From: Pyropia yezoensis
Taxonomy: Eukaryota > Rhodophyta > Bangiophyceae > Bangiales > Bangiaceae
DNA length: 64,000 nucleotides
Direction of reading: 5' to 3'
NCBI GenBank assembly: GCA_009829735.1
Contig: CM020619.1
Span: forward strand, 16,807,816-16,871,815
Shown here: in pieces, positions 11,910 to 29,717 of the stretch
Layout of the letters: the number at the start of each line of letters is the position of its first letter
How positions within the stretch are numbered: position 1 is the stretch's first letter
The notes under the pieces: model-generated
Seen by the model: only the letters and a program-made list of their open reading frames with translations
The model's database searches: none
What the model was told of the DNA's origin: nothing
Position numbers and translations under genes: made by a program

Positions 11910-12579
11910 CCCGGCATGTGTCCGGTGGTCTATGCCAGGACGAAATTCCGGTAGTCTATGAGGTTTTGATTCTGCAGGCTTCTCCGGCGAGTAGTCTTAT
12001 TGTCACTTCCTGTGACAACCGACGGCGGTCTATATGCATAATACCGGATACACCGCGTTTCCCAGTCCATTGATCGATTGGAGTAGGGGTTACACAAACT
12101 CCGCGCTTTTTCAGATGTCCGCACACACGGAGTTTGCTCTACGATTTAGCCGTCTGTCGATCTTACGAACGATTCTCCATTGTGGGCCCACAGCTCACAC
12201 CCTTGCCACGAACCCCCCCCCCCCCCCCCCCCCCCCTCCAAAGGAACCGCCCCCTCCTAATGAATCGCCCCTCCTAATGAACCACCATCCGAATGAACCG
12301 CCCCTCACTCTGATCTTGGGGGCGACGATCGCTAAGGGATGTGCTGAAAAGTCTTGTGGCTTTTCCGCAAACTACCAGTGTGTAATACTCAGGACAAAAA
12401 TCGTCGGGACAAAAATCGTGGTTTCCCGGGGCGCACGTCTCGCGGGCGTGCGCGCGCGAATGCATGCGCGCATGCGCGCGAACGCCCTCCCGCGCCCTCG
12501 CTCATGCGTGCTCGCGGACCGTGCGCGTGCATCCACGGGCATGCACGCACGCATGCGTGCACGCGCGGCCCCCACCCCC
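11910..12579. other. Intergenic spacer with C-tract and CpG-rich ATGC repeats
   Basis: No credible gene is seen. It includes a 24-C tract (12,213-12,236), a short AATGAACCGCCCC/AATGAATCGCCCC direct-repeat patch (12,250-12,305), and an alternating GCATGCGCGCA-type purine/pyrimidine stretch (12,440-12,570) of the kind prone to Z-DNA. It ends at the second leader block. Confidence 0.6.
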
Positions 12580-13315
12580 CACCGCCCTCTCCACGGTGTG
12601 CCGCGCCCCCTCCCTTCCCCCACCCCTCCCCACACCCCCCTTCCTGCTGGTGGCCGCCAAGGCGGCGGGCTGTGTGGCGGTGGCGGCGGCCGGACCTGTG
12701 CGTTTGTTGTGGGGGGGGGGCGTGAGGGGGGGGCGTTAGGAGGAGGGGGGAGAGTATGGGAGGGGCGAGGTGGCGGATCGGCGGCCGGCCGGGGGGGAGC
12801 ACGGGCGCGGCGGCTCTGTTGGGGGAGGGGAGCAGGTTGCGCCAGCACCGGTGGCGCGGGTTTTCAAACCGCGCCGCCGCCGCTGCTGGCGTGCTGCCCC
12901 CAAGCCGCGCCCCCATCCCACGGCCGCCGATTCTCTGCCGTGCCTTTTTTACCCCTTTTCCCCCACCCCTCCCCCTCCCCCTCCCCCCGCAGGTGGCAGC
13001 GGCCAAGGCGGCGGGAGGTGGTAGTTGCGGCGGTTGTAGCGGCCGGACCGGGGCGTTTGTTGTGGGGGGGGTGGGGGCGAGAGGAGGGGGCGTAAGGAGG
13101 AGTGGGGGAGAGTTTGGGAGGCGTGGGGTGGAGGATCGGCGGCCGGCCGGGGGGGAGCACGGGCGCGGCGGCTCTGTTAGGGGAGGGGGGCAGGTCGCGC
13201 CAGCACCGGCGGGGCAGTTTCTTGAAACGGCGCCGCCGTTGCTGCTGGTGTGCTGCCCCCAAGGCGCGCCCCCACCCCACGGCCGCTGATTCTCTGCTGT
13301 GCCTTTCTCGCCTCT

Positions 13316-13348
<33 letters not shown>

Positions 13349-13370
13349 CAGGTGGTAGCGGCCAAGGCGG
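12580..13370 (+). repeat. Tandem GC-rich leader repeat, block B
   Basis: This is a second copy of the block at the left end of the window, with anchors at about 12,653, 12,998 and 13,358 (spacings ~345 and ~360). The last unit ends in a 31-C tract and GCAGGTGG just before a gene, as block A does. Two genes of the locus therefore share the same leader architecture. Confidence 0.85.
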
Positions 13371-13453
13371 CGGGCTGGGTTGTGTTGCTGTGTCTGGCGC
13401 CCCGGCCTGCGGGTGTTGGGCCGGCAACGAGGCCGGTGGGTCCGCCGGTGGGG

Positions 13454-14767
13454 ATGGCGGTCACGCCACCGGTGGCTGACCCGGCTGCCGCGTCGGCGGT
13501 GGCGGTGTCGGCAGTCGAGTCAGTCGCGTCGGCGGGTACGGTGCCCGCCGCGTCGGCGTCGGCCGCGGCAGACGTGGTGGCCGAGCCGGCTGGTGTGGCG
13601 CCGGCGGAGCCGACGGTCTCGGCTGCAGCGGCGCCACCGGCAGAGTCGCCGGCGGCGTCGGCCGCGGCAGACGTGGTGGCCGAGCCGGCTGGTGTGGCGC
13701 CGGCGGAGCCGACGGTCTCGGCTGCAGCGGCGCCACCGGCAGAGTCGTCGGCGGCGTCGGCCGCGGCAGACGTGGTGGCCGAGCCGGCTGGTGTGGCGCC
13801 GGCGGAGCCGACGGTCTCGGCTGCAGCGGCGCCACCGGCAGAGTCGTCGGCGGCGTCGGCCGCGGCAGACGTGGTGGCCGAGCCGGCTGGTTTGGCGCCG
13901 GCGGAGCCGACGGTCTCGGCTGCAGCGGCGCCACCGGCGGAGTCGTTGGAGGCGGCGTCGGCGGGCAAGTGCACGGCAGCCTCGGTGGGTGTGGCGGCGA
14001 CCGTCGAGTCGGCCGTGTCGGCGGGTATGTGGACGGCGGCGTCGGGGGGTGTGGCGCCGGCGGAGCCGCCGGCCGTGTTGGCGGCTGCGATGCCGGTCGC
14101 CGAGTCGGTGGGTGTGGTGCATGAGGCGTCACAGACTGACCCGCTGGCCGTGGCGCTGGGGACCCCGGTGGTCGAGGCGGAGGTGCAAATGTCGGGCGTA
14201 GCCCAGCTGATGGGGTCACCAGTGCGGGCGGCCGATCCGTTGGAGCTGCTGAAGGAGATGGACTGTGATGTCGACGAGATTGTGCCGGTGCGACCGGGTT
14301 GGTCTGCGCCTGTAGTGGCAGACGAGCCGGCGGAGACCATGCTGGACGTCACTCACCCGGTGGTGAGGTCCGCGGTGACGGGAGCGGCGGCCGTTGGTAC
14401 CGACCCGGCGGGGGGTGCCATGGCCACGCGGGGTGACACGACGAGTGCCCTCGGACTGGTGCGTGCTTGTGACGCCCTCTTTGCTCGCATGGGCCCGCAG
14501 GCGACGTCCCAGGCCGACGCCTTGTGTGTCATCCAGACCACGTCGACCCTACTTCGTTGCGACCCGGGTGTACGGGTTTCCAAAGCCGCTGTTGCCCACC
14601 TGTCCCGTCTGTACCAGCCGCACGCGAGTGACCCGGTCGTGGTACGTGAGATGGCAACCACTGTGAGGCACGCCCTTCGCGGCCCGGGCTTGGCCAACCT
14701 GCCGCGCGCCAACCTCGAGGCACTCGTGGACATGTTTGTCATCCCCAAAATGGTTCCGAACGTGTGA
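13454..14767 (+). CDS. Ala/Pro-repeat protein of unknown function
   Basis: The ATG at 13,454 (GGGATGG) is the first in frame after the leader repeat. Residues ~35-170 are four near-identical 33-aa repeats built on ADVVAEPAGVAPAEPTVSAA. The C-terminal ~150 residues are not low-complexity and look alpha-helical (LGLVRACDALFARMGPQ, VAHLSRLYQPHASDPVVVRE, NLEALVDMFVIPKM). The ORF closes with TGA at 14,765-14,767, but the same frame stays open beyond it to 15,280, so the product may be longer. No known family is recognised. Confidence 0.55.
   Translation: MAVTPPVADPAAASAVAVSAVESVASAGTVPAASASAAADVVAEPAGVAPAEPTVSAAAAPPAESPAASAAADVVAEPAGVAPAEPTVSAAAAPPAESSAASAAADVVAEPAGVAPAEPTVSAAAAPPAESSAASAAADVVAEPAGLAPAEPTVSAAAAPPAESLEAASAGKCTAASVGVAATVESAVSAGMWTAASGGVAPAEPPAVLAAAMPVAESVGVVHEASQTDPLAVALGTPVVEAEVQMSGVAQLMGSPVRAADPLELLKEMDCDVDEIVPVRPGWSAPVVADEPAETMLDVTHPVVRSAVTGAAAVGTDPAGGAMATRGDTTSALGLVRACDALFARMGPQATSQADALCVIQTTSTLLRCDPGVRVSKAAVAHLSRLYQPHASDPVVVREMATTVRHALRGPGLANLPRANLEALVDMFVIPKMVPNV
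13562..13957 (+). repeat. 99-bp coding minisatellite, four copies
   Basis: The anchor GCCGCGGCAGACGTGGTGGC recurs at 13,562, 13,661, 13,760 and 13,859, an exact 99-bp period (33 codons). The copies differ by only a few bases, which indicates recent homogenisation. Confidence 0.95.
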
Positions 14768-15313: not shown

Positions 15314-16573
15314 GTGCTGGCGGGCAAGGGAGGTGCTGCGGTGCCGCAGCCGCAGCCGTTGAATCTACACACCCGCCTGTGGTCGCATTTGGTCGAGTCT
15401 GGCCGAAACCTTTCCGCCCCGGGGCGGGGTCATGGCGACGACAAGCTTGTCCCGGAAGGCGCAGGCAGCCCCGACGACGTGGCCCTGCTGATGTCCATGC
15501 CCGGGTCGTTGGCAATGTTGCCGACAGACTTCTTCGTCGCCTTTAAAGAGGTAGACGCATGGAAAACCGTCATATGCGACATGACGGCGTTGCTGTTTTC
15601 GTCCGTCCTTGGCTCTCCGGGTGCTGCTACTGCTGTCGCGCCGGCTGCGGCCCTGTTTTCACGTGTTGCGAGTGTGACAGCTTCAAACACTGGCGTCGGG
15701 TGGCTGGTAGCCCCCAGTCCACACTTCCGACGGACCGCCCGGCAGGTCATCCGCTGCCTGTCCGGTGTGGGTGAGCGGGGGGGCGGTGGGGCTGATTCGT
15801 GGTCCATCTCGGACCTGTTGGATGGGTGTGCACCCGTCCCGTCCGATGAGGGGTGGCGCGCTGTGTCCGCCCGCGAGACCACCAGCGCTCCCGCCCCGGG
15901 TGTGTCGTCGGGTGGCCCCCCACGGCCTTTTGACGCCCTGCGCGTCATTGAAAACGCCCTGCACTTGCTGGACGTCTCGGTGCGCGCTCGCGGGGAAGAT
16001 CGTGCCTGGAACGGTGTCCCCCTGCAGCAGTTTGCCGTATGTACGGCGTTTGTGCGGAGCAGCCGGCAAGTGTTGGCGGACGTTTGCGCGGGGCGCCCGC
16101 CTGCGGACTCACCCGGCGAGTCGGTTAAGCTGAGGGCGAGCGGAGCGCTCGCCCGTGTCTTGCACCTGCTCATGCGGCTGGACTTCCTCCGAGACGTGAA
16201 GCGCACACGGGGTGTCGGCCAAAGGGCCTTGGTCTCGTGCCTCATCCTACTCTCCGACCACAAGCAGTTCTGCACGCACTTCGATATCATGAACGTGGCA
16301 AACCTGGTTCCCGTTGTCAACGAGTGGATGGAGGCACTCCCGTGGCTTTGGGAGGTTCTTATCGGGCACGTGGAGGCGGACCGGTCACTCTACAACTGGT
16401 TGTACTTCGCGGCCGTCCATAACCTGGTGCGGACGCCTCTTGCGGTTGGCTTGTGGGCATCTCGGCGGGTGTTGGCCCAGTCAACGTTGGATTGGTTGGC
16501 GTCACCGTTGGGCCTGCGGCCCTGGGCCGGAAAATCGGTGGTACGACCTGTTCGGGGGCCCTCCACGCGCTGA
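15314..16573 (+). CDS. Conserved-looking helical protein of unknown function
   Basis: About 400 residues of normal composition, mostly predicted helices, with segments such as FDALRVIENALHLLDVSVRA, VKLRASGALARVLHLLMRLD and YNWLYFAAVHNLVRTPLAVG. The frame continues in phase from the previous ORF, separated only by the TGA at 15,281. A GTACGA donor at 16,541 and a GGCAAG acceptor at 16,608 would connect it in frame to the helicase gene. It may therefore be the N-terminal region of the helicase, or a separate upstream gene. No family is recognised. Confidence 0.5.
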   Translation: MLAGKGGAAVPQPQPLNLHTRLWSHLVESGRNLSAPGRGHGDDKLVPEGAGSPDDVALLMSMPGSLAMLPTDFFVAFKEVDAWKTVICDMTALLFSSVLGSPGAATAVAPAAALFSRVASVTASNTGVGWLVAPSPHFRRTARQVIRCLSGVGERGGGGADSWSISDLLDGCAPVPSDEGWRAVSARETTSAPAPGVSSGGPPRPFDALRVIENALHLLDVSVRARGEDRAWNGVPLQQFAVCTAFVRSSRQVLADVCAGRPPADSPGESVKLRASGALARVLHLLMRLDFLRDVKRTRGVGQRALVSCLILLSDHKQFCTHFDIMNVANLVPVVNEWMEALPWLWEVLIGHVEADRSLYNWLYFAAVHNLVRTPLAVGLWASRRVLAQSTLDWLASPLGLRPWAGKSVVRPVRGPSTR

Positions 16574-16608
16574 AGGGTGCGCTCTGTCCGCCGGCCAGGC
16601 CTGGCAAG

Positions 16609-18702
16609 CGGGCCAGCCCCCTGGTCGTACGACTACGTCAGCGCATCGACGAAGTACTGAGCGGGTATGCTGTGCCAGACGACGCAGAGGCGGGTGTGGG
16701 TGCAGCAGCAGCTGCCGCCGGTGCTGGTGCGGTTGCGGCGGCTGCCGCTGGGGCGGGTGCAGCAGCTGCCGCTGGGGCGGGTGCCGGCTCAGGTGCCGAG
16801 GACGATGGACCGCCACCCGCAACGCCCGGTGTGGACAGGGCGAGCCCACCAGGTGAACCAGACGCCTTTTACATTGGCGACGACGCGGGGGGCGAAATCG
16901 AGTTTGTGTGCTACCTACCCGCAGTGGCGGTCCCAGACAATGTGTTGGCTGCGCAGGCAGTTTCCCCTGTCTACAATGCGGAACCCTGCAACGTCATTGT
17001 GTTCATTGACGACGACGATGACTGGAATGACGCAGAGAACGATGACGTGACTGTCGTCAGTGTGGCCCGGGTGGTCCGGGCCGGCCAACTGGTCGGGCAG
17101 CGGCGGACGTCATCCGCCACTGGGGCGGCCGCCCATGTGGCAGTAGCTCAGAGTGCTGCCACCTCTGTCGCGACGGTAGCTGCCACCTCCTCCGCGACGG
17201 CAGCCGTCCCAGGCGGGCCCTCTACGCCCGAGGTTCCTGTCACGGCTGCTGCTCCCGATGCTCCATCGGCGGCGGGTATAGCCACAGGCGCGGTGGATGC
17301 TGTGGCTGTGGGTGCTCCTGGCGTTGGTGGGGCTCCTGCGGGCACGGCGGCCGTGGCCGACGCGGGTGTTAGCGGAGGTGCACCTGCTGAACCTGGTACT
17401 GCTGCAGCAACCAACACCGCAGGGGTGGCTGCTGTGCGCATGGCAGTGGCTCGGGGGGAGGAGCCCTCTCCCGCTTTGCCTGCAGTTGCAGACGCGGGGG
17501 CGGCTGTTGTTGGAGGTGAGACTGCCGGCGTAGGAGGCCCTTGTATCGGTTCCCCGGCTGGTGGGGGGGACGCGTCTCCCACTGCTGCACCTCTGCCCGC
17601 GTCGGCGGCGGCGGCGGGGGGGGGTGCCACCGAGGCCAGTCCTCCCACACTGTGTGGCGCGGATGGTGACCGGGTGGCGCTCGGTCAGTTGACGCTCTGT
17701 ACGTCCGAGTCGGGGTGGAAGGGTTTCCCAACCCACTTGCGCCCGTCCCCGCTGTACGCAAGAGGACCTGGACCCCACTGGCAGGCCATCGTTGTCGCCA
17801 CCTTGTGCCAGCTTGCCGCCCGCGGTACATACGCGGTGGCGCAGTCTATCGAAGGCAGCAACAAGGACCACGGCGGCGGCGGCGGACGCAGTGGGCGCGT
17901 GACCACATCGTCATTGTGCTCCCGCTTTGGCGTGGCTCGCATCGACGCGCCCATCACCCTGTCGTCGCCGCAGGTGGGGGGCTTCATCCTGGACGACCCG
18001 CGGGCGTGTCGCATGTGCAACGTGCTCGTGCGTATGCCCGCCCCCCGGGGTGGTCCCCCCGGTGGGGGCGGCCGCCCTACCGGGGGATCCGCTGGGCGCC
18101 ACCACCGCCGCCACAAGGACCGCGGGGGAGAGTGTCAAGTGGACCCCACAGACGCCACCCCGGGTGATTTGTGTGCCTTTTGGGTACCGGAACCCGTCGG
18201 CTCGGTGTGCAGCACCCCCGTGGACGCCGTGTTTATTGGCCGCTGCGAGGACAAGGAGGGGCAACCCGGCGGGAGGGTTGGTGGCCCACCGCCCGGGGGG
18301 GCAGGCCAGTGGTGGGTGGACAAGACGCCTGGCCCGGGGCTGGACGAGCAGGACGACGACGCCGGCGGCGCGGCGCGCCACGGTGGCGCTTCCGTCCCCC
18401 CCCGGCGGTTGTGGTTTGCGGTGCGTCGTTCAGACGTGCGGCGGATGCTCCATCGCCGGACGGCAAATGTGGTCGTCACCCTGTCTCATAGTATCCTGTC
18501 GGACAGCCGCGAGTTTGGCGGCCTCGGCCACTGGGACCTTCTTCCGCCAGTCATGCAGAGGGCGCTCGCCATCCACGCAACGCCTCCGCACGGGGGACAG
18601 CAGGTGGTACCTGTACCGGCACCGGGGCCTGCCCCCCTGCAGAGTTCTCCTCCACGCTACGCCCACCTGGACGAGTTCCGGTGGCGCGCAGTCGATTGCA
18701 TG
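16609..18702 (+). CDS. UPF1-like SF1 helicase, 5' part (disrupted)
   Basis: No ATG fits the start, so the 5' end is probably spliced from upstream. After an Ala-rich linker and acidic patches, the conserved part begins near 17,640 and includes GDLCAFWVPEPVGS, DAVFIGRCED and LWFAVRRSDVRRM, resembling the beta-barrel domain 1B of UPF1/SMUBP2-type helicases. It ends YAHLDEFRWRAVDCM, the position of the Q-motif that precedes Walker A. The ORF is stopped by TGA, which is the first three bases of the inserted LTR. Removing the retrotransposon and one target-site copy restores the frame directly into the Walker A exon. The Q-motif and the ATPase core now lie about 9.4 kb apart. Confidence 0.7.
18698..18702. 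other. Target-site duplication, left copy (GCATG)
   Basis: GCATG immediately precedes the left LTR and recurs immediately after the right LTR (28,081-28,085). Five bases is the usual Ty3/Gypsy duplication length. Confidence 0.95.
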
Positions 18703-19170
18703 TGAGGCAAAAACCACTCGCACACACGGCACCCAAGTTGGGGCGGTGTGCGAGGGCTGCCTCCCGTGTCGGGGGAACCGGAAGAAGTGCAAGTCGCACA
18801 CACTCTGTCCCTGTTGTGGGGCAAACCCCCCACCAACAAACAAGAAGATGGTGTGTGGTCCAACAGTTTCTTGGTCGGGACCGGGACGCAGGGCCAAGCC
18901 CCGCTGTCCCTCCCCTTATCCCCCCAGGGTCCCCTCAGAATCTCGCCACTCAGAATCTCCCACCCCAGCACCTGCCCACCGGGCCACACGAAAATTCAAG
19001 ACGATAAATGCAGAAAACCCTCAAATCCAAGTTGGATTTACTACTAAGCTAACTATCCCAAACTTAGGGAATATGGACCCAAATGCAGGGGGAGGAACGG
19101 ATCAGGCTAGTGGCCTGCCGCCCCTTGCATGGCACGTGTTGCCCCCTACCTGGGGGTCAATACTGCCACA
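18703..19170 (-). repeat. LTR (the element's 3' LTR)
   Basis: It starts TGAGGCAAAAACC and ends TACTGCCACA on the plus strand, 468 bp. It differs from the other LTR at only four positions, near 18,705, 18,748, 18,754 and 18,881. It contains two of the palindromes, at 18,732-18,742 and 19,023-19,039. Confidence 0.97.
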
Positions 19171-19183
19171 CTCCCCTCTCCCC
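19171..19183 (-). other. Polypurine tract
   Basis: On the minus strand this reads GGGGAGAGGGGAG, directly abutting the 3' LTR. This is the expected position of the plus-strand DNA primer. Confidence 0.9.
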
Positions 19184-19511
19184 AGTTCCGACCGACCCGG
19201 TCGGCCCTGTGAGGGGGTGCGTAAACGCACGTCTCGGCGTTGGGGGGGGCGCGACTTGCTGTCCCCCCTTGAGTACGTAACGCGGATGTGGCGGCGGTCA
19301 CTTTGACCGCCCCTCTCCTCAAGCTTGCCCACTCGACAGCTTGCTCCCCTCGGTTCATACCTCACCACCACCACCACTTCTCCTTCACCTTACACGGGGC
19401 CGCCCCACGCTGGGGAGGCCACCCGTCTACCCACGATCCGAGTCCCCCTCAACTCGAGGCGGGTCTCGTGCCGCGATAGCCAGGGCGTCTCTCCCCAACT
19501 TGGGGAGAGCC

Positions 19512-21455
19512 ATGGCGACTCCGGGAGTGGAGACGGACTCTCTCGATGAGCGCATGGAGGACGCCTCCTACGGTGCAGCGCCTGCCGGGACTTCCGGCGG
19601 GGGCTCCGCGATCGTTCCGGGGGATGGGACTCCCGCGTCACCCGGCTTTGGGTTGACGGCGGGATCTCCCCCGGAGGCGGGACAAGTTGTCCCGCGTGAG
19701 GCCTTGGGGTGGTGGTTTTACCCCGCTTGGCCTCTGCATGAGGAGGGGTTGAGTGTTCTTCGCTGTGGCCGACTTGGCGCAGCGATGGGTCGGGTATGGG
19801 ACCGCCTACGGGAGAAGTATCCCCGTAGGGTCGGGTTCCCTGCCGGCTTCAGGACGGACCAGTTTGCCTTCCTGGACGACGAGGAGGTCGAAGACGTACA
19901 ACGGGCCAAGGCCATGGTGGACCGCGGGGGAACTATCCCGGGTCCCGGCGACTTGCCGACCTTCACTTGGGACGCGGTGGCAGCTCGCCCCCCGTACCTT
20001 CACGAGGCCGATCCGCACACTCATCACTTTGATGTGCGGATGGAGAAGGACTTCCGGCGAGGTCCCTACTTGGTGACCTCGGCTAAACTTGAGTTTCCTC
20101 AGCAGTCTGCTGCCAGTAAGGAGCAATACTACCCGAAGAAGCCCGAGTGGTGGCCTCAAGTTGAGGTCCCCTACGGGTTCCCGGCGTTGTTGCCACGGTT
20201 GCTTGACCACTTTGGCTCCGTCATGTTGACGGCTGGCCCTGATCATCTGGTGTGGGCCATGTTGGCCACCCAGTGGCTCCTCGAGGTCATGTCGACCTGG
20301 GTGTCTTGTGTTCAGCGGCGGGGGATGCTCTGGCATCTCCCCCTCCGGCTCATCCAGGGTTTGGAACAGCTCACCCCTCAGCTAGTTGCTGAGGGGTGCT
20401 CATCAGGACAACTCACTCTACTTGAGGAGATGCTCCGCCTCCACAAGTTTATCGAGTGGGAGAGCATTGAGCACAAGTTGCGCCGCCCCACTCGTGGGCC
20501 CAAGGACGATGGCGCACTTCGCCAGTTCGTATGGGTCGCTCGTGAACTTCACGACGGCCGTGTGGTCCTACGAGAGGGGTTGGGCATCGGGGACTACCCG
20601 TATGCCCCGGGGGTGGATCGCCACACTGCGCCACCCCCGGACAAGCCCATAGTTATGGCCGTGCCCTCATACGATGACCACATGACTCAACCTACTGCGT
20701 GGGCCCCAAGTCGGGGTCGCAGTTACACCCGGGTCCCGCCACCTCGGCGGGTCCCTCCGCTTCCTCCTGTCCCCTTCCAACCACACGGGGACATCCCGAT
20801 TAGCGTGGCCATTGAGTCGACCACCCCGGTGTCCCCCAACTTGGGGGCCACCCTCTTGACGGTATACCCCAAGTTGGTGTTACCGCCCACGCCTCTAACC
20901 TCAGAGATGATGATCACCACGTTGGTGCGTACCATTTCCTGGTTGGCCGCGTCGACCGCAACCCTCCAAACTTCCGAGCCTCCTCAACTTGAGGAGCGCG
21001 TTCGTACTGCAGTGGCGACCGCGAGTTGCGAGTCGGTGGCGGAGTTTATGACGGCCGAGTTGGCTCGCATTGGGGCTATTATGCCCCAGTCAGCCCCACT
21101 TGGGCGTGGCAAACGTCGCGCGAGCCGGGCATACTCGCCTCCTCACCGTCGTCGCCGACACTCGCGGCGCTCTCCCTCCGTGTCGGAAGACGAGTTGTCT
21201 TACTCCGTCTCGGAGTCTTCTATTCCGTCGGAGACGGAGTCTGTCCGGCGTCTGCGTCGCAAACTTGCGCGCAAGACCAAGCAGAAGAGTAGCCACGGTC
21301 GGCGCCACTTGCGCGACCGTGAGGGGCGCGACGGTTCCGACCTGGAGCCGCCGCCCCCTCCAACGAGTGGAGACCGTTATCGGCGTGGGTCTCGCCGCTC
21401 GCCTCTACGTGAGGGCGAGGGCCGTGGGCTTGGTGAGTCTAGCATGCATGCCTAG
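19512..21455 (+). CDS. Antisense accessory ORF of the retrotransposon
   Basis: This 647-aa ORF is on the strand opposite to gag-pol, between the pol stop and the 3' LTR. The start GAGCCATGG at 19,512 has good context; the frame is open upstream to 19,341. The N-terminal ~450 residues have normal composition, with WWFYPAWPLHEEGLSVLRCG, FDVRMEKDFRRGPYLVTSAK, HLVWAMLATQWLLEVMSTW and RQFVWVARELHDGRVVLREG. The C-terminus is an Arg/Ser-rich tail (PPHRRRRHSRRSPSVSEDEL) resembling nuclear RS or RNA/DNA-binding tails. I recognise no family. Additional antisense ORFs are known in some plant Ty3/Gypsy elements, mostly without a known function. The intact frame in a young copy suggests it is maintained by selection. 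Confidence 0.75.
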   Translation: MATPGVETDSLDERMEDASYGAAPAGTSGGGSAIVPGDGTPASPGFGLTAGSPPEAGQVVPREALGWWFYPAWPLHEEGLSVLRCGRLGAAMGRVWDRLREKYPRRVGFPAGFRTDQFAFLDDEEVEDVQRAKAMVDRGGTIPGPGDLPTFTWDAVAARPPYLHEADPHTHHFDVRMEKDFRRGPYLVTSAKLEFPQQSAASKEQYYPKKPEWWPQVEVPYGFPALLPRLLDHFGSVMLTAGPDHLVWAMLATQWLLEVMSTWVSCVQRRGMLWHLPLRLIQGLEQLTPQLVAEGCSSGQLTLLEEMLRLHKFIEWESIEHKLRRPTRGPKDDGALRQFVWVARELHDGRVVLREGLGIGDYPYAPGVDRHTAPPPDKPIVMAVPSYDDHMTQPTAWAPSRGRSYTRVPPPRRVPPLPPVPFQPHGDIPISVAIESTTPVSPNLGATLLTVYPKLVLPPTPLTSEMMITTLVRTISWLAASTATLQTSEPPQLEERVRTAVATASCESVAEFMTAELARIGAIMPQSAPLGRGKRRASRAYSPPHRRRRHSRRSPSVSEDELSYSVSESSIPSETESVRRLRRKLARKTKQKSSHGRRHLRDREGRDGSDLEPPPPPTSGDRYRRGSRRSPLREGEGRGLGESSMHA

Positions 21456-21566
21456 TTGGCAGCTGCCTTTGTCGTGAGAGTGTGAGGGTTAGGGCTGTAG
21501 TTAAAAGCCACTCTGCGTACCACTTCGACTTGAAGCACTCTCTTGGCACTGTTGCTCGGCCTTCCC

Positions 21567-24500
21567 TCACGTTGAGGGAGGGCTGTTAGGGTCTATCTCA
21601 TTCCGGGCACAGTACGCCCGGACCTTCTCAGCGGGAAGGTCCTCCACATACTCCCACGTATCATCCTTGGCTTTGTAGCCAAACCAACGCACCCTCAACA
21701 TGAGGCGGTCAGTGTCCTCATCCCAGCCGTGGTCGATGAACGTATCGAACACGTACTCCTGCGGGCCCTGTTTGGCCGCAGGCAGCGAGGGGAGGCGCCA
21801 CGCTTCCAGCGCACGTGCCCAAGCTGGGTCGCCTGCAGGCGGTGGTGCAACTTTGACCACGTCCTGTCCGTTCACTGTGCGGATCCCATCGTCACTTTCG
21901 ATGGTGTAGCGCCGCCCATCAGTACGAAGGACCTGGTACGGCCCCTTCGTCTGGAATACCAACTTACCCCCAGTTGGGGTGTGTGAGTGTACCAGCACCC
22001 AGTCACCCTGCTCGGGGACATGTTTCGCATTGCGCACCTTTTTGTCAAAGGTACGCTTGTAGCGCTTTTGTGCTTTGTCCATCTCAGCCCTGACTTTAGG
22101 GATGAGGTTTTCAAGCCTAGCAGCGAACTCCGCCTTACTCTCAGTAGGAGTAGGCGTACTGCCACCACCCTCCCTAGTTGGGAGCGGCCGCCGCACGGCA
22201 ATAGACCGCACGCGACGGGGGGTCACAAAAGCGAGGGGTACTTCCCCGGTAGATGAGTGAACCTGCGAATTGTAGGCAGTCGTCAGAATAGAAATGTATT
22301 GGTCCCACGTCTTCACGTGCTCACTCACATAATGGCGCAGCTGCCTAACAATAGTTTTGTTGAAGCGCTCCACCTGCCCATTAGTTTGTGGGTGGTAGGG
22401 GGTGGCATAGTTTGCCTTAACCCCCAACATATCCAGCACTCCCTGGAACAGTACAGACGCAAATTGCGGTCCATTGTCCGATAGTGTACTATCCGGAATG
22501 CCATACGCGGCAACCCAGTGATCTAGGAAGGCTGACACGACCGACATGGCCGTGATCTCTGCCAGTGGGATCGCTCGCGTAAGTTTCGTGAAGCGGTCAC
22601 TGATGACCAGGAGGTACTGGTTGCCCTCCTCGGTCACTGGCAGTGGCCCAAGGATGTCCATCGCCAACGCGGCGAAGGGCTCCTTGGCCGGGAACAATAG
22701 CATAGCCGTAGTAGGCCGCCGTTCCATCAGACGGTTCTGTGCACAACTTGTGCAGGCAGCCACCCAACTGTAGATGTCCACCACCATGGACGGCCAGTAG
22801 TACCTGGTCCTCAGGGTCTGGTACAGTTTACTAGACCCCAGGTGTCCACCCGTGGGAGCGTTGTGCTCCCTCTCAAGGATACTGTCCTTGAGGGATGCGG
22901 GGACGACAAGTTGCTCGGTCCCCTGGAATACCCCCCTCCTCAGGAGGAGGCCATCATCTCCCAGAAAGAATCGCGTCTCCGCCACTGTATCCAGTGTATC
23001 CCTCTGCGACTTGCAGAAGGGATCTTCGGCCTGGGCCTTCACCACCTCGTCCAGGGACGGGGGCAAGTACTTCTTGTTCCCTGGCACCTCGGGGTTCAAC
23101 GCTTGACCCGAGCGTGTGACTACCCCCACGATGGGGATGTCCTCATCGACTGGGGTGGTGTCCAGTCCCTCGGTAGGTACCCGAGAGAGGCCGTCGGCAA
23201 GGGCATGTTGCCTGCCAGGTCGGTACTCAATATCAAAGTTGAAGGGTGCAAGTCGCACCCTCCACCGGTTGAGACGAGTGTTCGTGCAGTCCGTCTTGAA
23301 GATGAACTGCAACGCGCGGTGGTCACAGCGGATGAGGAACTTCTCACCCTCTAGGTAGTGACGAAGTGACGTCACCGCCCACACCACTGCGAGTCCTTCC
23401 AACTCGGTGACTCCGTAGTTCTTTTCGGCCGAGTTTAGCCCCTTGCTGAAGTATCCCACCGGCAGGTACTCCTTGTCCGGCTGCTGCTGAAGCAACACAC
23501 AACCAAGTTGGTCGTAGCTAGCGTCCACATCCAGGATGTAGTGGCCTCCCAACCTGGGAATAGCCAGGATAGGGGGCTTCAGCAGAAGGTCCCGAAGAGT
23601 CTCAAAGGATTCCTGCTCCACCCGACTTGGGGGAGGCAGGTTCTTCGGTAGCGTTGAGCTCACTAACTCATTCAACGGCTTCGCCACCTTGGCGAAGCCC
23701 TTGGTGAAACGTCGGTACACGTTACGCATCCCGAGGAAGCTCCTCATCTGGGTCTGGGTCCGGGGGTACTGAGCCTTACGGATGGCCCTCAAGTTTTTCT
23801 CGTTGACACTGAGACGCCCCGGACGGACAACATGTCCCAAGTATTCCACCTCTTGAGTGAAGAGGTGGCACTTACTCGCCTTCAGTGACACACCGGCGTC
23901 AGCAAGTAGCTTGAACACCTGGCCAAGATGGCCAATGTGTTCTTCCGGACTTTGGGAGAACACAATGATATCGTCTAGGTACACGAGACAGATCTGCCAC
24001 CGTACTCCGGCCAGAATCATGTCCATAGCGCGCTGGAAAGTTGCCGGCGCGTTACACAGGCCAAACGGTAGACGCTTGCACTGGTAGGTACCACAGTGAC
24101 AGGTAAAGGTAGTTTTATGCCTGTCCTCCGGGGCAATGGGAATTTGCCAGTACCCCGCGTTACAGTCCAGGGTAGAGAACACGTTTGCCTCCCCCAGAGA
24201 GTCCAGACAGTCATCCATCCTAGGTAGGGGATAACTGTCCTTCACCGTGCTCTCGTTGAGCTTACGGTAGTCGATACAGAACCGGGGGGTCCCATCAACT
24301 TTGGGGACTATAACCACCGGACTCGCCCACTCGGCGTTGCTGGCCTCGATCACATCGAGGGCCTCCATGCGAGCAACTTGCTCCTTAACGAGGGCCCTTG
24401 CACGGGGTCCTCCCCTATACGGTTGTTGGCGTATAGGGGGTGCACCGGGCTTCAACTCGATCCGGTGTTGGGTAGCTCTCATGAGTCCCAATTGACCATC

Positions 24501-25550
24501 CCACAACTTGTGATATTGGTCCAAGAGGCGTTCAACTTGAACCCTCAACCTGGGTGGGACACCCTCCATGTTCACATGGGGCCGAGGAGAGGCGGCCGAC
24601 TTGGCTTGATGCTTCTCCTTTCCGGACTTCGGGTCGCTACTTGCGCCCGCGTTGAGGGTGACCGCTACTACCGGTCCCTCGTGTTGGTCGATATAGCCGA
24701 ACTTGGCTCCCGACTTGAAGTACTTGGGCGACGAGTTCAGGTTCATCACCTGGATCCTCCACGGGACTCCGGCTTTGGAGTCCATCGTGCCAAGGGCAAC
24801 TTGCACTTGGTGCTTGCGAGCAAGACGGGGGTGAGGGTGCACCAACCCGTTCCCCGTATAATCAGTTACAACATCCACGTGCGCCACCGAGTTGGGGGGC
24901 AACGTGACTTTACGGGCTAAACGCAGGGTAGCAGTAAGCCCTTCCCTCACAGAACAAACAGGCTTCGACTGTAAGACTGTCACAGGAGCCACGGACTTTC
25001 CCTTACCAAGGATGGGGATAGTCTCCCCATTCATCAACTTGACCCAGTACTCAGGGCCACAAATCAAAGGCACTTGTGTTACGACATAAGGGGTACCCAG
25101 AAGCAGGGGTACCGATATATTCTCAACTACACCATAGGTCACGTCGACCTCATGGGTCCCCAACCTAGTTGGTAGGGTCACGGCACCAACGATGGGAAGT
25201 ACCCCACCATTGATGTCGATCAGATGGTCAGCTGTAGACTTCCAGCGTTGGAGCTTCATCTCCTTTGGTAATAGCGACTTGCGTATCAAGGAGGCTCCTG
25301 ACCCGGTATCAAGTACGATACGGGCACAACAGGCGCGGCCGGGGGCAAGTTGCACCCGTCCCGCCACCTGGAAGTTCTCACCCGTCAACACCGCGATGAC
25401 CCGACGTGGGTTTACGTTCTTGGGGAGTCCTACCCGAGCTGGGCGGACCCCCTTAGGTCGCCGCAGTATCCGACACGGTTGATTCGTCCTTTTGGCCCGC
25501 TTGGCCGAGGCGACCGTTGTGAGCTTCGGACGACCAGCTCCAACGGTCAT
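21567..25550 (-). CDS. pol: Pol polyprotein (protease, RT, RNase H, integrase, chromodomain)
   Basis: The ORF is 1327 aa and uninterrupted. The aspartic protease has LDTGSGAS at ~80-87. Reverse transcriptase spans ~380-560 with VVIVPKVDGTPRFCIDYRKLN and YLDD at ~524-527. RNase H starts around 673 (LDVDASYD) with ELEGLAVVWA and CDHRALQFIF. The integrase zinc motif uses H896, H903, C933 and C936; its catalytic triad is D964 (AMDILGP), D1025 (LSDNGPQF) and E1061 (GQVERFNK). A C-terminal chromodomain at ~1265-1317 contains LRVRWFGYKAKDDTWEYVED, which places the element among the chromoviruses and suggests targeting to methylated histone. Its ATG overlaps the preceding ORF's TGA as ATGA, so expression needs re-initiation or a -1 shift. 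Confidence 0.95.
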   Translation of the reverse strand: MTVGAGRPKLTTVASAKRAKRTNQPCRILRRPKGVRPARVGLPKNVNPRRVIAVLTGENFQVAGRVQLAPGRACCARIVLDTGSGASLIRKSLLPKEMKLQRWKSTADHLIDINGGVLPIVGAVTLPTRLGTHEVDVTYGVVENISVPLLLGTPYVVTQVPLICGPEYWVKLMNGETIPILGKGKSVAPVTVLQSKPVCSVREGLTATLRLARKVTLPPNSVAHVDVVTDYTGNGLVHPHPRLARKHQVQVALGTMDSKAGVPWRIQVMNLNSSPKYFKSGAKFGYIDQHEGPVVAVTLNAGASSDPKSGKEKHQAKSAASPRPHVNMEGVPPRLRVQVERLLDQYHKLWDGQLGLMRATQHRIELKPGAPPIRQQPYRGGPRARALVKEQVARMEALDVIEASNAEWASPVVIVPKVDGTPRFCIDYRKLNESTVKDSYPLPRMDDCLDSLGEANVFSTLDCNAGYWQIPIAPEDRHKTTFTCHCGTYQCKRLPFGLCNAPATFQRAMDMILAGVRWQICLVYLDDIIVFSQSPEEHIGHLGQVFKLLADAGVSLKASKCHLFTQEVEYLGHVVRPGRLSVNEKNLRAIRKAQYPRTQTQMRSFLGMRNVYRRFTKGFAKVAKPLNELVSSTLPKNLPPPSRVEQESFETLRDLLLKPPILAIPRLGGHYILDVDASYDQLGCVLLQQQPDKEYLPVGYFSKGLNSAEKNYGVTELEGLAVVWAVTSLRHYLEGEKFLIRCDHRALQFIFKTDCTNTRLNRWRVRLAPFNFDIEYRPGRQHALADGLSRVPTEGLDTTPVDEDIPIVGVVTRSGQALNPEVPGNKKYLPPSLDEVVKAQAEDPFCKSQRDTLDTVAETRFFLGDDGLLLRRGVFQGTEQLVVPASLKDSILEREHNAPTGGHLGSSKLYQTLRTRYYWPSMVVDIYSWVAACTSCAQNRLMERRPTTAMLLFPAKEPFAALAMDILGPLPVTEEGNQYLLVISDRFTKLTRAIPLAEITAMSVVSAFLDHWVAAYGIPDSTLSDNGPQFASVLFQGVLDMLGVKANYATPYHPQTNGQVERFNKTIVRQLRHYVSEHVKTWDQYISILTTAYNSQVHSSTGEVPLAFVTPRRVRSIAVRRPLPTREGGGSTPTPTESKAEFAARLENLIPKVRAEMDKAQKRYKRTFDKKVRNAKHVPEQGDWVLVHSHTPTGGKLVFQTKGPYQVLRTDGRRYTIESDDGIRTVNGQDVVKVAPPPAGDPAWARALEAWRLPSLPAAKQGPQEYVFDTFIDHGWDEDTDRLMLRVRWFGYKAKDDTWEYVEDLPAEKVRAYCARNEIDPNSPPST

Positions 25551-26011
25551 TCGTTTCCCGCCGACTTGGCGTCCGAATCTGAGGGCGAAGGGGAAGACGA
25601 CGAGTCCGAGAACGACGTGTCCGCCCCCTCCGCCGAGGGTGTGGTGACCGCCACTACCGGTCGAGACCCACCCTCGCGGCGCGAACGTACTTCGTTCGTA
25701 GCCGACTTCTTACTCGCATTCCTAACAAGTTGTTGGATGCGTTTACTCAACTTGGGGCAATCATATGCCCAGTGTCCATCGGAGTTGCAGTTCCAACACC
25801 GATGGTCAGCTCCCGGAGGGGTCTTCCCAACTGGGGAAGACGAAGAGATACCTTGGGAAGTTCCCACGGCAGCTACCACCCTCTCCTTGCGGATTCGGCG
25901 CGCCTCTCTCAACTCTCTGGCCTGGCGCGCCTCCTCCCGTTCCTTGGCCAACTCGGCCTGACGCTCCAGGCGTTGTTCCTCCCGCAACTTGCGGTAGGCC
26001 TCGCCTCTGCG
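25547..26011 (-). CDS. Gag C-terminal part: coiled coil and CCHC zinc knuckle
   Basis: This region is in the same frame as gag, separated by a single TAA at 26,012-26,014. It begins with a charged helix (REEQRLERQAELAKEREEAR) and contains CWNCNSDGHWAYDC, a CX2CX4HX4C nucleocapsid knuckle that binds RNA. A Ser/Asp-rich tail ends at TGA, overlapping the pol ATG by four bases. Either gag has recently lost this part through a stop, or the stop is suppressed to make Gag-NC. Confidence 0.85.
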   Translation of the reverse strand, partial: RRGEAYRKLREEQRLERQAELAKEREEARQARELREARRIRKERVVAAVGTSQGISSSSPVGKTPPGADHRCWNCNSDGHWAYDCPKLSKRIQQLVRNASKKSATNEVRSRREGGSRPVVAVTTPSAEGADTSFSDSSSSPSPSDSDAKSAGNE

Positions 26012-27517
26012 TTAGGCGAACCTAGCCAACTCGGCCAGGGTCGCCCGGGCAGTGTTATGCTCCCGGGTCTCCATCCGGACTGACCAATGGAGTCCCTCCA
26101 CAAACCGACTCTTCACCACAGCTTGTGGATGAAGAAACCCACAAAGATTGTTGAGCTTACGAGCACGCTCCGCAAAGGACATCTCGTCCTCCGCCTCGTC
26201 CTGATGGGCTTGCGTGAACTCCTCGACCTGGGAAGCCAACGCCGCTTCATCAACCATGGCCCTCAACAACCAGTTGACGAGCTCCAAATAGGACGTCACC
26301 TCCCCAGCGCCTCCACTCGAGGAGCTGGGCATGACGGACATAAGTTCTGTCCGCAGGTCTCCCTTCGTAAACTCCTGTAGCATGTAAAAAGCCATGCCTT
26401 CACTTATGGCATTGTCGTCACAGGCTTTTGTGAAACGACGTAGGAACTCAAAGACACGGAGGGGGGGAGTTCCATCCCACTCCGCTTTGTGCCCAAAAGA
26501 GTGAAGTGCATTCTTTTTGGCACGGCCCATGGCTCGGGCCTGGTCAGGACCATACGCCACCGACTTGTTGTGGAGGGCGTAGGTCTCACAGTCAAAGATC
26601 CTCTGGTAGACCGGGTTGGCTACCTGGATCTTGGGCGGCACCTCACGTTGAGGGAACAGCCGCTGTGGCACTGGGGTAAGTTCACCCTCAGTGCCTGTAG
26701 TCCGGCGCGGCGCGCTTGGTGTAGCCGCCGGTGTTGTCGGGGGGACCTCCCCCATGAAGGGCGTACGCCCCACCGAGTATGGTGTGGCTCCCTCGCTGGG
26801 AGTCACAGGGGTCGCCCCCTGTTCGGGGCGACCCGAGATAGGCGTGAGGGGGGATTCCCCCTGCGCCTGCGGGCTCGAAAGCCCCAATCCGGTCTGGACA
26901 TTAAGGCCATCTGGCAAACTCGCCACAATCTGATTCAGAATAGTATTCGTCATCGTGACCACCAGGTCCGGCAAAGTCTGCCGCAACACATTGGTCGCCT
27001 CCCGACGGACAGTTTCCGCGAGGAGTGGATTGACCACTCCAGTTGAGTCTCGGTCCACCTCCGGGAGTCCACCTGAGGGGTAACCACGTTCCTCAGGGGT
27101 CTCAACCGGGGGCATGGGCGCAAGCCCATCGCCGACCGACGGAGGTCCGCCGTCCTCCGAAAGCCTAGTTGGCGATGGCTCCATGCCAAAGTTGGCTCCA
27201 ACCCGAGTGGAACCCGCGGGGACAGTCCTCACCCCTTGGGACGTTCCCGTTGAGTATACCACGCGGTGGCCAGACTTCGGCCCACCCACATCAGAAGTGT
27301 CACCCGAGTGAACTCCCGACTGAGTCGGGGTGGCCTGTTGCCCGCCCGCACTTCCAGTCCTGCTGGCTTGAGGGACCTCTAGTCCCTCTGCGACCCCAGG
27401 TAAACCCACCTGTGTCTCACCAGTATTCAAAGGCACTGAAGTACGTGCGTCACCCGTGTACTCCCCGGACGACGGGGGGTCCGAGCTAGCCATGTTGGCT
27501 AACGATCCGTATGACAC
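26012..27517 (-). CDS. gag: Gag, capsid part, ending at an in-frame TAA
   Basis: The ORF is 501 aa. The N-terminal ~280 residues are Pro/Gly/Thr-rich and disordered. The C-terminal ~200 residues form a retrotransposon gag domain, with RIFDCETYALHNKSVAYGP, LRVFEFLRRFTKACDDNAIS, YLELVNWLLRAMVDEAALA and FAERARKLNNLCGFLHPQAV. The reading frame continues after TAA into the zinc-knuckle ORF, so this is one gag interrupted once. Confidence 0.9.
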   Translation of the reverse strand: MSYGSLANMASSDPPSSGEYTGDARTSVPLNTGETQVGLPGVAEGLEVPQASRTGSAGGQQATPTQSGVHSGDTSDVGGPKSGHRVVYSTGTSQGVRTVPAGSTRVGANFGMEPSPTRLSEDGGPPSVGDGLAPMPPVETPEERGYPSGGLPEVDRDSTGVVNPLLAETVRREATNVLRQTLPDLVVTMTNTILNQIVASLPDGLNVQTGLGLSSPQAQGESPLTPISGRPEQGATPVTPSEGATPYSVGRTPFMGEVPPTTPAATPSAPRRTTGTEGELTPVPQRLFPQREVPPKIQVANPVYQRIFDCETYALHNKSVAYGPDQARAMGRAKKNALHSFGHKAEWDGTPPLRVFEFLRRFTKACDDNAISEGMAFYMLQEFTKGDLRTELMSVMPSSSSGGAGEVTSYLELVNWLLRAMVDEAALASQVEEFTQAHQDEAEDEMSFAERARKLNNLCGFLHPQAVVKSRFVEGLHWSVRMETREHNTARATLAELARFA

Positions 27518-27593
27518 GGTCCAAGTCCACCGTTCCTCTGAGACAGAGGGCCCCCTACACCCGGGTGCACCCGGAGGTAAAGTTTACCTCTGT

Positions 27594-27612
27594 CCCCTGC
27601 TGCTCCACCAAA
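27594..27612 (-). other. Primer-binding-site candidate
   Basis: Directly inside the element's 5' LTR the minus strand reads TTTGGTGGAGCAGCAGGGG, that is TGGTGGAGCAGC after a two-base offset. TGG-initial sequence is expected for pairing with a tRNA 3' CCA end. The tRNA was not identified, and this is not the common initiator-Met site. Confidence 0.55.
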
Positions 27613-28080
27613 TGTGGCAAAAACCACTCGCACACACGGCACCCAAGTTGGGGCGGTATGCGAGAGCTGCCTCCCGTGTCGGGGGAACCGGAAGAAGTGC
27701 AAGTCGCACACACTCTGTCCCTGTTGTGGGGCAAACCCCCCACCAACAAACAAGAAGATGGTGTGTGGTCCAACAGTTTCTTGGTCGGGACGGGGACGCA
27801 GGGCCAAGCCCCGCTGTCCCTCCCCTTATCCCCCCAGGGTCCCCTCAGAATCTCGCCACTCAGAATCTCCCACCCCAGCACCTGCCCACCGGGCCACACG
27901 AAAATTCAAGACGATAAATGCAGAAAACCCTCAAATCCAAGTTGGATTTACTACTAAGCTAACTATCCCAAACTTAGGGAATATGGACCCAAATGCAGGG
28001 GGAGGAACGGATCAGGCTAGTGGCCTGCCGCCCCTTGCATGGCACGTGTTGCCCCCTACCTGGGGGTCAATACTGCCACA
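27613..28080 (-). repeat. LTR (the element's 5' LTR)
   Basis: 468 bp, starting TGTGGCAAAAACC and ending TACTGCCACA on the plus strand. On that strand, an ATG inside it (27,993) is open in frame into the helicase 3' part, adding 29 LTR-encoded codons plus the target-site sequence. Confidence 0.97.
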
Positions 28081-29717
28081 GCATGCGCCGGGGGCTGTTG
28101 TCGGACGAGTGTGACGTGCAGCTGGTGACGGGCCCCCCCGGGACGGGCAAGACACGCGCCATTGTCTCCATGGTGGACATGGTACTTGGGACCCTGCCAG
28201 ACGGGCGGGTCCTGCTGACGTCGCGCACCAACACGGCGTGCGACGAGCTGTTGGACGCAGTGCACGAGTTGTTTTATCCGTCGGGGGCTGCCAGTCGACA
28301 CGGCGTCGCAAAACCCGATGCCGTGACGCTCCTCCGTGTGGGTGAACCCCCTCCGGATGGCCACCGTGCCAAGACAACGCACATTGACGCCGTGGTGGAC
28401 GAGCGCCTTCCTGTCGCCTACCCGTCCGTGACAGCCGCGGTGGAACGGGCAAGGGCACGGGTGGCCGATGTGGGCCGTCGTGTGGATCGTTCCCGCGCCC
28501 AGGGTGCAGAGCCGGGCGCGGGTCGGTCACAAAACCTCCTCGACGAATGTGCCGATGCGGAGCAAGCCCTGGAGGCTGCCTTGCGTCGCCAGCAGCGTGC
28601 GGAACGGGAGCTCCGCAAGCGCATCGTGGGCGGCGCGTCCGTCATTGTAACAACCACGTCAACGTCGACGGGGGCGCTCGTGGGGGGTCAAGGCTTTGAC
28701 GCCATTATCATTGACGAGTGTGCGGCAACAAGCGTCCCTGCGTCTGTCGCCGCCATTGTTCGCGCCAAGCGGGCGGGGCGTGCGGGTGGCTCGTCAGACG
28801 AAGAAGAGGACGGTCATCCGGCAGAGCGGACCAAGTGCATTGTCTTTGTTGGCGACAATGCCCAGCTGAGGCCGAGCGCCGGCATGGAGTACAGAGGCGA
28901 GACACGGCCGATGACATCAAGCGTTTTTGAGCGGCTCGCCAGGTTTCTGTCCGCTTGCGTCATCCTCTCCGTGCAGTACCGCATGCGGCCGCTGTTATGG
29001 TCCCTCCTCCGAGAAGTCTTTTACCGGCACATTGGCGTATGGTCGGACGGGCGCGGGCCCAAGGCCCGCCATGAGGAGGGGTTTGGAACACCCGCGAGGC
29101 TAAACCATCCGAGTCGGCGTATTCGCTTTGGAGGGCTGCAAGTGACAGACACTTCCCGCCTGCCGGCCAACGATCGGGCGCACAAGTCGGGTTCCACCAC
29201 CTGCAACAACAAGAGCCTGATCAACGTTGCAGAGCTTCGGTTGGTCGAGATGGCTCTTACGGATCTACTGCTGGCGTGGGCGACGTCCAGCGGGGCTACC
29301 GAGCTGAAGGTGATGCTCATCACCCCGTATACTGCGCAGCGGAACAAGCTGAATGAAGTGGTGCAGTCGGTGAGAGACAGCAGGCGGCTGCCCCGCAGAC
29401 CATGTGCCGACGTCAGGGTGTCCACCGTGGATGGCTGCCAAGGCGCTTCTGTGGACTGTGTCATACTCTCCCTCGTGCGGTCAGAGCCTGGGGCGCCACC
29501 CGGCGGGAGCACCGACTTTTTGTCCGACGAGCGGCGCGTGAACGTCATGATGTCGCGGGCACAGAGCCATCTCCACGTGATTGGTGACATGGACTACCTT
29601 TCAAGCTCTGGGGGTGTGTGGAAGAGCTGGTGGGACAACGTCCGCCATAGGTGGAGCCGTCCAGATCGACCGGGCCGCGAGCACATCAACATTGTGGCTC
29701 CCGACAGGGCCTTCTAG
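28081..29717 (+). CDS. UPF1-like SF1 helicase, 3' part (ATPase core)
   Basis: The motifs appear in the canonical order: Walker A GPPGTGKT (28,131), motif Ia near LLTSRTNTACDEL, Walker B IIIDECAA (~28,703), motif III FVGDNAQLRP (~28,845), motif IV QYRMRPLL (~28,975), motif V STVDGCQGASVD (~29,420) and motif VI RRVNVMMSRA (~29,535). DECA and the VNVMMSRA ending place it with the UPF1/SMUBP2/SETX group of 5'-3' RNA/DNA helicases. A charged insertion (GSSDEEEDGHPAERTK) lies between motifs II and III. Severed from its N-terminus, it could only be expressed from a promoter in or near the LTR. Confidence 0.93.

Follow-up and report, generated by a model that had tools for sequence, protein, structure and literature searches.

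A family-specific hairpin code in Ty3/gypsy retrotransposons of the red alga Pyropia yezoensis

The stretch of Pyropia yezoensis DNA analyzed here, hereafter the window, comprises 64,000 nucleotides (nt) of contig CM020619.1 (GenBank assembly GCA_009829735.1, positions 16,807,816 to 16,871,815 of the forward strand), and coordinates below are counted from its first letter. Positions 18703-28080 are occupied, on the minus strand, by a Ty3/gypsy long terminal repeat (LTR) retrotransposon, recognized by its LTRs, gag, the order of its pol domains and its target duplication. An initial annotation had described this element, correctly, as a retrotransposon, and as one strewn with odd-length palindromes that share the center AACTT or AAGTT (AASTT) while their arms differ. 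The palindromes are real and far in excess of chance, and comparison with related elements of the same genome revealed that core, dyad parity and loop length are characteristic of each retrotransposon family, rather than there being one universal AASTT motif.

The element and its palindromes

The element is flanked by the 5-bp target duplication GCATG, and at least 40 full-length matches to its LTR, its own two included, are found in the genome at 98-100% identity. Its open reading frames (ORFs) and LTRs are as follows.

18703..19170, minus strand: 3' LTR, 468 bp, with 4 mismatches in 468 relative to the other LTR; palindromes centered at 18737 and 19031, and an imperfect one at 19063
19341..21455, plus strand: antisense ORF between pol and the 3' LTR, 704 amino acids from a TTG, first ATG at 19512
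21567..25550, minus strand: pol ORF (reverse transcriptase, RNase H, integrase)
25547..25987, minus strand: CCHC zinc-knuckle ORF, 146 amino acids (PF00098, E = 4.4e-6)
26012..27517, minus strand: gag ORF, 501 amino acids
27613..28080, minus strand: 5' LTR, 468 bp

The pol domains follow the order reverse transcriptase, RNase H, integrase, with Pfam matches to RVT_1 (E = 5.5e-36), RT_RNaseH (1.5e-30), Integrase_H2C2 (1.4e-17) and rve (4e-11); the chromodomain PF00385 was not called in this pol, yet some homologues have it, P0007 and P0008 among them. The gag ORF gave no Pfam match.

All 15 AASTT-centered palindromes of the initial annotation are exact and correctly placed, and four more of at least 11 bp were found, at 24502-24512 and 25724-25734 and as the 5' LTR copies at 27642-27652 and 27933-27949. 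At least eight had been said to reach 15 bp or more; nine AASTT-centered ones do, or eight when the LTR copy is counted once. Seven further sites had been offered as examples with one mismatch, and five of these are dyads with 7-9 of 10 pairs (centers 21571, 22177, 23252, 23688 and 25831), but near 21,525 and 25,555 the best arrangement pairs only 6 of 10. The palindromes and the best imperfect dyads of the element are listed here.

18732-18742: 11-bp palindrome in the 3' LTR, center 18737
19023..19039: 17-bp odd palindrome in the LTR, core CAAGTTG
19489..19509: 21-bp odd palindrome, core CAACTTG, 10 of 10 pairs
19677..19695: 19-bp odd palindrome, core CAAGTTG
20154..20166: 13-bp odd palindrome, core CAAGTTG
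20375..20395: dyad with 9 of 10 pairs, core TAGTT, thus A[C/G]T but not AASTT
20540..20554: 15-bp odd palindrome, core GAACTTC
20833..20847: 15-bp odd palindrome, core CAACTTG
20980..20996: 17-bp odd palindrome, core CAACTTG
22740..22754: 15-bp palindrome across the C-x-x-C codons of the integrase zinc motif
22872..22892: dyad with 9 of 10 pairs, core TACTG
23502..23512: 11-bp palindrome within the conserved ASYDQLGC motif
23847..23867: dyad with 9 of 10 pairs; a homologous dyad in element L024 has the center base swapped (ACT/AGT)
24371..24383: 13-bp palindrome
24530..24542: 13-bp palindrome
24790..24810: dyad with 9 of 10 pairs in the window copy and 6-8 in seven other compared copies
25821..25841: dyad with 9 of 10 pairs
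25854..25866: 13-bp palindrome, its center G changed to C in copy L018
25982..25994: 13-bp palindrome
27574..27590: 17-bp palindrome upstream of gag, core AAAGTTT

AASTT-centered odd palindromes of at least 11 bp number 19 in the element, whereas the remaining 54.6 kb of the window has 0; expressed per site, arms of at least 5 surround 19 of the 45 AASTT sites inside the element and 0 of the 23 outside it. Pairing around AASTT centers runs at 0.49-0.69 at distances 3-8 and at no more than 0.33 at distances 9-14, while 558 other palindromic 5-mer centers in the element pair at only 0.25-0.29. With one LTR counted, arms of 5 or more flank 17 sites; 500 dinucleotide shuffles produced 0.17 such sites on average and never more than 2. 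Shuffling of synonymous codons (1000 times for each ORF) likewise failed to yield such palindromes, the observed number and shuffled mean being 6 and 0.28 in the antisense ORF, 5 and 0.20 in pol, 2 and 0.03 in the zinc-knuckle ORF, and 0 and 0.04 in gag. These shuffles rule out chance, composition and codon usage as the cause, and the excess claimed by the initial annotation therefore stands. Its statement that the palindromes lie in LTRs, gag, pol and the antisense ORF holds for all of these except gag, which contains 0 of the AASTT type.

The fixed center fared less well. AASTT is strongly preferred in this element, but it is not a rule and it is not universal, other families using other cores. 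When dyads with at least 8 of 10 pairs are taken whatever their center, the element has 38, with C or G at the center in 36 and ACT or AGT as the central triplet in 27, and past distance 3 from the center the arm sequence is arbitrary. In pol the AASTT sites lie in ungapped protein alignment with homologues, some of them in highly conserved motifs, which shows an origin by substitution and rules out the insertion of small palindromic elements there. Pooled over the families described below, dyads occur at 4.7 per kb of coding and 3.8 per kb of noncoding sequence (the latter only 5.5 kb) and their spacing is random. Given that the palindromes are indifferent to coding or noncoding status and to the strand of the ORF, they act, or arise, at the level of the nucleic acid, as had been proposed.

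Cores, parity and loops across four families

Three further gypsy families were sampled through pol homology, represented by L021, by L022 and L023 (one family) and by L024, so that the sample consists of four Ty3/gypsy families from one genome. Their pol is 60% (L024) and 52% (L021) identical to that of the window element, and their gag, over 200-213 amino acids, is 62% (L024), 50% (L021), 45% (L022) and 46.5% (L023) identical. All four families, within a search confined to Ty3/gypsy elements, carry hairpin dyads.

Dyads with at least 8 of 10 pairs were counted against dinucleotide-shuffle expectation. The window element has 38 odd dyads where 4.4 are expected and is not enriched in even ones (4 vs 4.5); L021, counted with 260 bp of flank, is mainly even (63 vs 5.4; odd, 18 vs 5.7); and odd dyads again prevail in L022, which includes some flank (29 vs 5.6; even, 9 vs 4.8), in L023 (37 vs 6.1; even, 10 vs 5.0) and in L024, the borders of which were not located (32 vs 6.7; even, 10 vs 4.8). 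As for the central cores, ACT or AGT occurs in 26 of the 32 dyads of L024, with flanks unlike those of the window element, TTAA is the commonest core of L021 (10 of 63), and an A- or T-center is found in 29 of 35 dyads of L023.

The same holds for the predicted hairpin loops, the commonest length being 5 nt in the window element (69 observed, 27 in shuffles), 4 nt in L021 (114 and 44), 3 nt in L023 (68 and 26) and 6 nt in L024 (78 and 43 for loops of 6-7 nt), or approximately 1.7-2.6 times the shuffled number in the four elements. Among stems of 7 bp this parity comb recurs in the window element, in L021 and in L023, and it is diffuse in L024. L024 is a sister family (pol 60%) in which the A[C/G]T core is retained and loop lengths (5-7 nt) are more diffuse, perhaps a code in transition. 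Dyads at common codon columns are rare between families; for the window element and L024 in pol the figure is 1 of 19, the center there changing from ACT to AGT.

Outside the element, the rest of the window has a small excess of dyads (odd, 74 vs 48; even, 74 vs 46), and a genome-wide habit is thus weak at most. Among the control stretches, the majority of which have lower counts, window 12001-14000 reaches the density of the families for one parity (even, 10 vs 3.1), mostly in CG-rich repeats, as does the part of L018 described below. Separately, 7-bp inverted repeats with loops of 9-60 nt are in excess in the window element (18703-27612) and in L021, those with loops of 21-60 nt numbering 52 vs 30 and 66 vs 35, respectively.

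Several further observations concern these elements and their surroundings. An ORF at 16453-18705 stops at the left border of the window element and an ORF with AAA_11/AAA_12 domains runs from its right border (28081-29717), so the element seems to interrupt a helicase gene; elsewhere in the window, at 39562-40824, lies an ORF with the squalene/phytoene synthase domain PF00494. L014 (C2:26203421-26208439) and L015 (C1:13896443-13901460) are 5.0-kb copies on different chromosomes with identical internal deletions, which keep the LTRs and the antisense-ORF region and have lost most of pol and gag, as in a non-autonomous subfamily. A family with at least 35 matches (for example C1:16457601-16461587), the pol of which is 98-100% identical to P0003, seems to have been active very recently. 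Viral and prokaryote contig collections queried with the window-element pol yielded no relatives.

Strand, copies and candidate readings

Arm mismatches offer a view of the strand on which pairing matters. In 168 dyads of the four families there are 168 such mismatches, among which sense G-U pairs number 32 and A-C pairs 43 (window element, 8 and 10; L021, 12 and 9; L023, 4 and 16; L024, 8 and 8), and a looser dyad set from the window element, L021 and L023 gave 88 and 86. Among 8-bp stems of the parity proper to each family, counts that are not independent given that one hairpin may enter under more than one loop length, enrichment is 25-fold for perfect stems (69 observed, 2.8 expected), 10-fold for stems with one A-C mismatch (96 and 9.5), 7.6-fold for those with one sense G-U pair (67 and 8.8) and 4.3-fold for those with one other mismatch (165 and 38.8). 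The difference between 67 and 96 has a nominal P of 0.03, subject to the same non-independence, and points, if anywhere, to the antisense strand. The central base is C in 21 dyads of the window element, G in 15 and another base in 2, and in L024 the corresponding numbers are 10, 18 and 4. Some loops look strand-biased, mostly in L021 (TTCA paired at 0.52 vs 0.30 for TGAA). Folding z-scores lie far below those of shuffles on both strands, with means per 180 nt of -1.5 to -3.6 in the families vs -0.35 and -0.10 in the window control. G-U is not preferred over A-C and central C and G are about equally frequent, which favors DNA, or both strands, over sense RNA; taken together, these data suggest a target in which the two strands are equivalent, as they are in DNA. 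The lack of G-U tolerance weakens the RNA-hairpin option of the initial annotation insofar as it implies a hairpin in the single-stranded sense RNA.

Copies of the window element were compared for evidence of selection, using ten other copies or part-copies and excluding the window copy itself because the dyads were chosen in it; L017, L019 (LTR only) and the short loci L001-L008 were left out of all copy comparisons. Arm columns at third codon positions are variable in 11 of 177 cases, vs 353 of 2405 elsewhere (P = 0.0005), and over all arm columns 34 are variable where 48.6 are expected (P = 0.014; 77 of 2000 circular shifts are as low). Covariation of the arms between copies, the lack of which the initial annotation had named as refuting, did not appear, there being 0 compensated and 50 broken copy-cells; the outcome of its refuting conditions is thus mixed, since codon shuffles did not yield the palindromes. 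Elsewhere, compensated changes amount to a single stem pair when L022 is compared with L023 and to a single loop-position pair within the L021 family. Nine dyads range from at least 8 to at most 6 pairs between copies. The dyad at 20676 forms a stepwise 6-7-8 series through single changes, and at 21231 a four-base substitution cluster accompanies 9 pairs in L011 and L020 vs 6-7 in the other copies. Measured against the window copy, single substitutions increase dyad scores about as often as they decrease them; measured against L011, own-parity scores fall 496 times and rise 281 times, and other-parity scores 388 and 399 times. As judged from these alignments, selection is supported in one family, that of the window element, and not in the others.

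The interpretation that we favor, tentatively and as something short of probable, is that the dyads are family-specific hairpin tags on element DNA that are read by a putative element-encoded factor. Each sampled family carries some 30-60 short dyads (approximately 19-20 bp) able to fold into hairpins, in which the mark of the family is the loop, by its length and a soft sequence, on a 6-8 bp stem of any sequence. The hairpins might form in single-stranded complementary DNA (cDNA), or as small cruciforms in supercoiled DNA. The best candidate for the reader would be the predicted, fast-evolving protein of the antisense ORF, homologues of which occupy the same place 3' of pol in L024 (37% identity over 288 amino acids) and L021 (30% over 218 amino acids), less conserved at 30-37% than pol. 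A protein of this kind could find the DNA of its own family and leave other families untouched, and its purpose might be to shield that DNA from silencing, or to steer it into replication or integration. There are precedents for such a reader, the VANC proteins being element-encoded factors that read family-specific motifs (PMC5735166), and the Retand elements of plants are described as having antisense ORFs with another domain, predicted to be DNA-binding (PMC11963269).

A number of observations weigh against this DNA-tag interpretation. The antisense ORF matched 0 Pfam families at E 0.001, TRP28 (PF04195) included, the predicted structure of its conserved part (pLDDT 43) is too poor to interpret, and no ORF matching it was found in L022/L023; in the protein database, only P0001 emerged as a homologue among the 8000 candidates scored per search. 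In the window family, conservation of arm columns at first, second and noncoding positions equals background. Arm conservation is lacking in the L021 family (five copies in addition to the reference; third positions variable in 23 of 149 vs 148 of 1127) and between L022 and L023 (9 of 92 vs 90 of 1241), and with all four sets pooled P is 0.34; the L021 and L022/L023 copies may be older than those of the window family. Parity is not absolute, L021 having its excess of odd dyads and other-parity 8-bp stems being enriched approximately 2.6-4.6-fold over the four families (G-U, 2.6-fold; A-C, 4.6-fold). In L018, from base 5480 (C3), beside a truncated copy, even dyads number 16 where 3.2 are expected, GTAC being the commonest core (3), with one weak pol match; this stretch may be a further element family with its own code, and its even excess implies that the feature may not be confined to the sampled families. 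Three of the four families fold with a slight energetic advantage on the sense strand, approximately 1 kcal per 180 nt, each gain being less than 2 standard errors and L023 going in the opposite direction. Finally, cruciforms with 6-8 bp stems are physically marginal.

A different possibility, which we regard as serious although on balance unlikely, is that the hairpins are dispersed RNA packaging signals or kissing-loop dimer sites, the family loop being bound by Gag, or pairing loop to loop, which would restrict packaging to RNA of the family itself; in the kissing variant ACU would pair with AGU, and UUAA with itself. A constant loop on a variable stem across the genome is the pattern described for packaging signals (PMC6281560, PMC7612645). 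The strong folding z of the families relative to the window control, the slight advantage of the sense strand and the preference for loops of 3, 4 and 5 nt, which is a property of hairpins, all fit such a role, and kissing loops would account for the equal use of C- and G-centered loops. A protein that reads the loop, however, is not expected to take C and G equally, the antisense strand folds nearly as well as the sense strand, and sense G-U pairs are not tolerated as RNA pairing would lead one to expect, whether in the dyads, the 8-bp stems or the looser set.

Somewhat more doubtful is an origin as a mutational by-product, in which the reverse-transcription strand folds back, copies itself and returns, thereby perfecting hairpins, and in which the loop reflects the geometry of each family's polymerase. 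Stems of Watson-Crick pairs only, alike on both strands, are what this process would produce, and dyad positions that are almost never conserved between families, arms unconserved in two families, the surplus of inverted repeats with longer loops in L021 and the window element, and the substitution cluster at 21231 point the same way. Yet noncoding DNA, free of protein constraint, is no richer in dyads than coding DNA, and this similarity of densities weakens the template-switch option raised by the initial annotation. Moreover, no arm pair is compensated among the 50 changed copy-cells of the window family, the variable dyad at 20676 changes one step at a time, substitution clusters (at most 12 examined per set) give no clear lean to hairpin gain, and the fixed core sequence is left unexplained.

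It is improbable that the dyads serve a homodimer that binds duplex DNA and reads the short palindromic core only, with the arms secondary; the soft cores (around CAASTTG, CCTTAAGG and CCTWAGG) are nearly strand-symmetric, as such a protein would favor, but arbitrary arms pair out to distance 9-10, which ordinary duplex recognition does not require. We give very little credence indeed to palindromes as marks of integrase target preference or as scars of nested insertion: LTR retrotransposons are said often to target palindromes (according to a title cited in PMC11963269), but the pol sites are not insertions, and 5-bp duplications occur in the window element, in L023 and probably in L021 (GACGT, which depends on a judgement of the LTR start), though the dyads of L021 are mainly even. 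The occurrence of 5-bp duplications with both odd and mainly even families also rules out target-site duplication length as the source of dyad parity.

Known systems and significance

RNA viruses and reverse-transcribing viruses have dispersed packaging signals whose loops vary in size and sequence from family to family. As in the families studied here, the packaging signals described for MS2, STNV and hepatitis B virus are many stem-loops across coding sequence with a shared loop and variable stems. The present families are unlike them in their preferred dyad parity and Watson-Crick stems and in the lack of G-U tolerance or of a clear strand bias; they are also LTR retrotransposons.

With the VANC/VANDAL system they share a dense, family-specific short DNA motif and a fast-evolving, element-encoded candidate reader. 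VANC motifs, as described in PMC5735166, are fixed sequences, mainly in noncoding tandem repeats and in one orientation, whereas the dyads have variable stems, lie in coding and noncoding sequence, occur with both center orientations and are randomly spaced. The window element resembles Retand (PMC11963269) in being gypsy, in its long region between pol and the 3' LTR and in an ORF antisense to gag-pol, and differs from it in that no TRP28 (PF04195) was found in that ORF; in the Retand paper 'palindrom' occurs solely in the references and 'hairpin' nowhere.

Small DNA hairpins that are extruded from duplex and read by protein have a precedent in the promoters of the phage N4 virion RNA polymerase, which have a 3-nt loop and a short stem. 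Those are a few phage sites, vs dozens across a retrotransposon here. Among the titles and abstract openings searched, no report was found of retrotransposon families that contain arbitrary-stem hairpins by the dozen together with a loop code specific to the family. As a sequence phenomenon, the family-specific hairpin code in retrotransposon DNA is genuine and, as far as that literature extends, undescribed.

More broadly, and with a shade more reserve than for the tags themselves, we suggest that LTR retrotransposons of bangiophytes may carry a heritable, family-specific DNA hairpin code that is rewritten when families split, with which a candidate element-encoded factor would tell its own DNA from that of rivals and of the host; we know of no mobile element with such a self/non-self recognition layer. 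If functional, the code would provide a directly testable answer to the question of how co-resident families reserve their replication machinery for their own use, and would offer a natural case of several joint divergences of recognizer and hairpin code within a single genome. If it is a product of mutation, a strong process of hairpin perfecting would come to light, one that is tied to particular reverse transcriptases and shapes coding sequence. Either outcome would be surprising.

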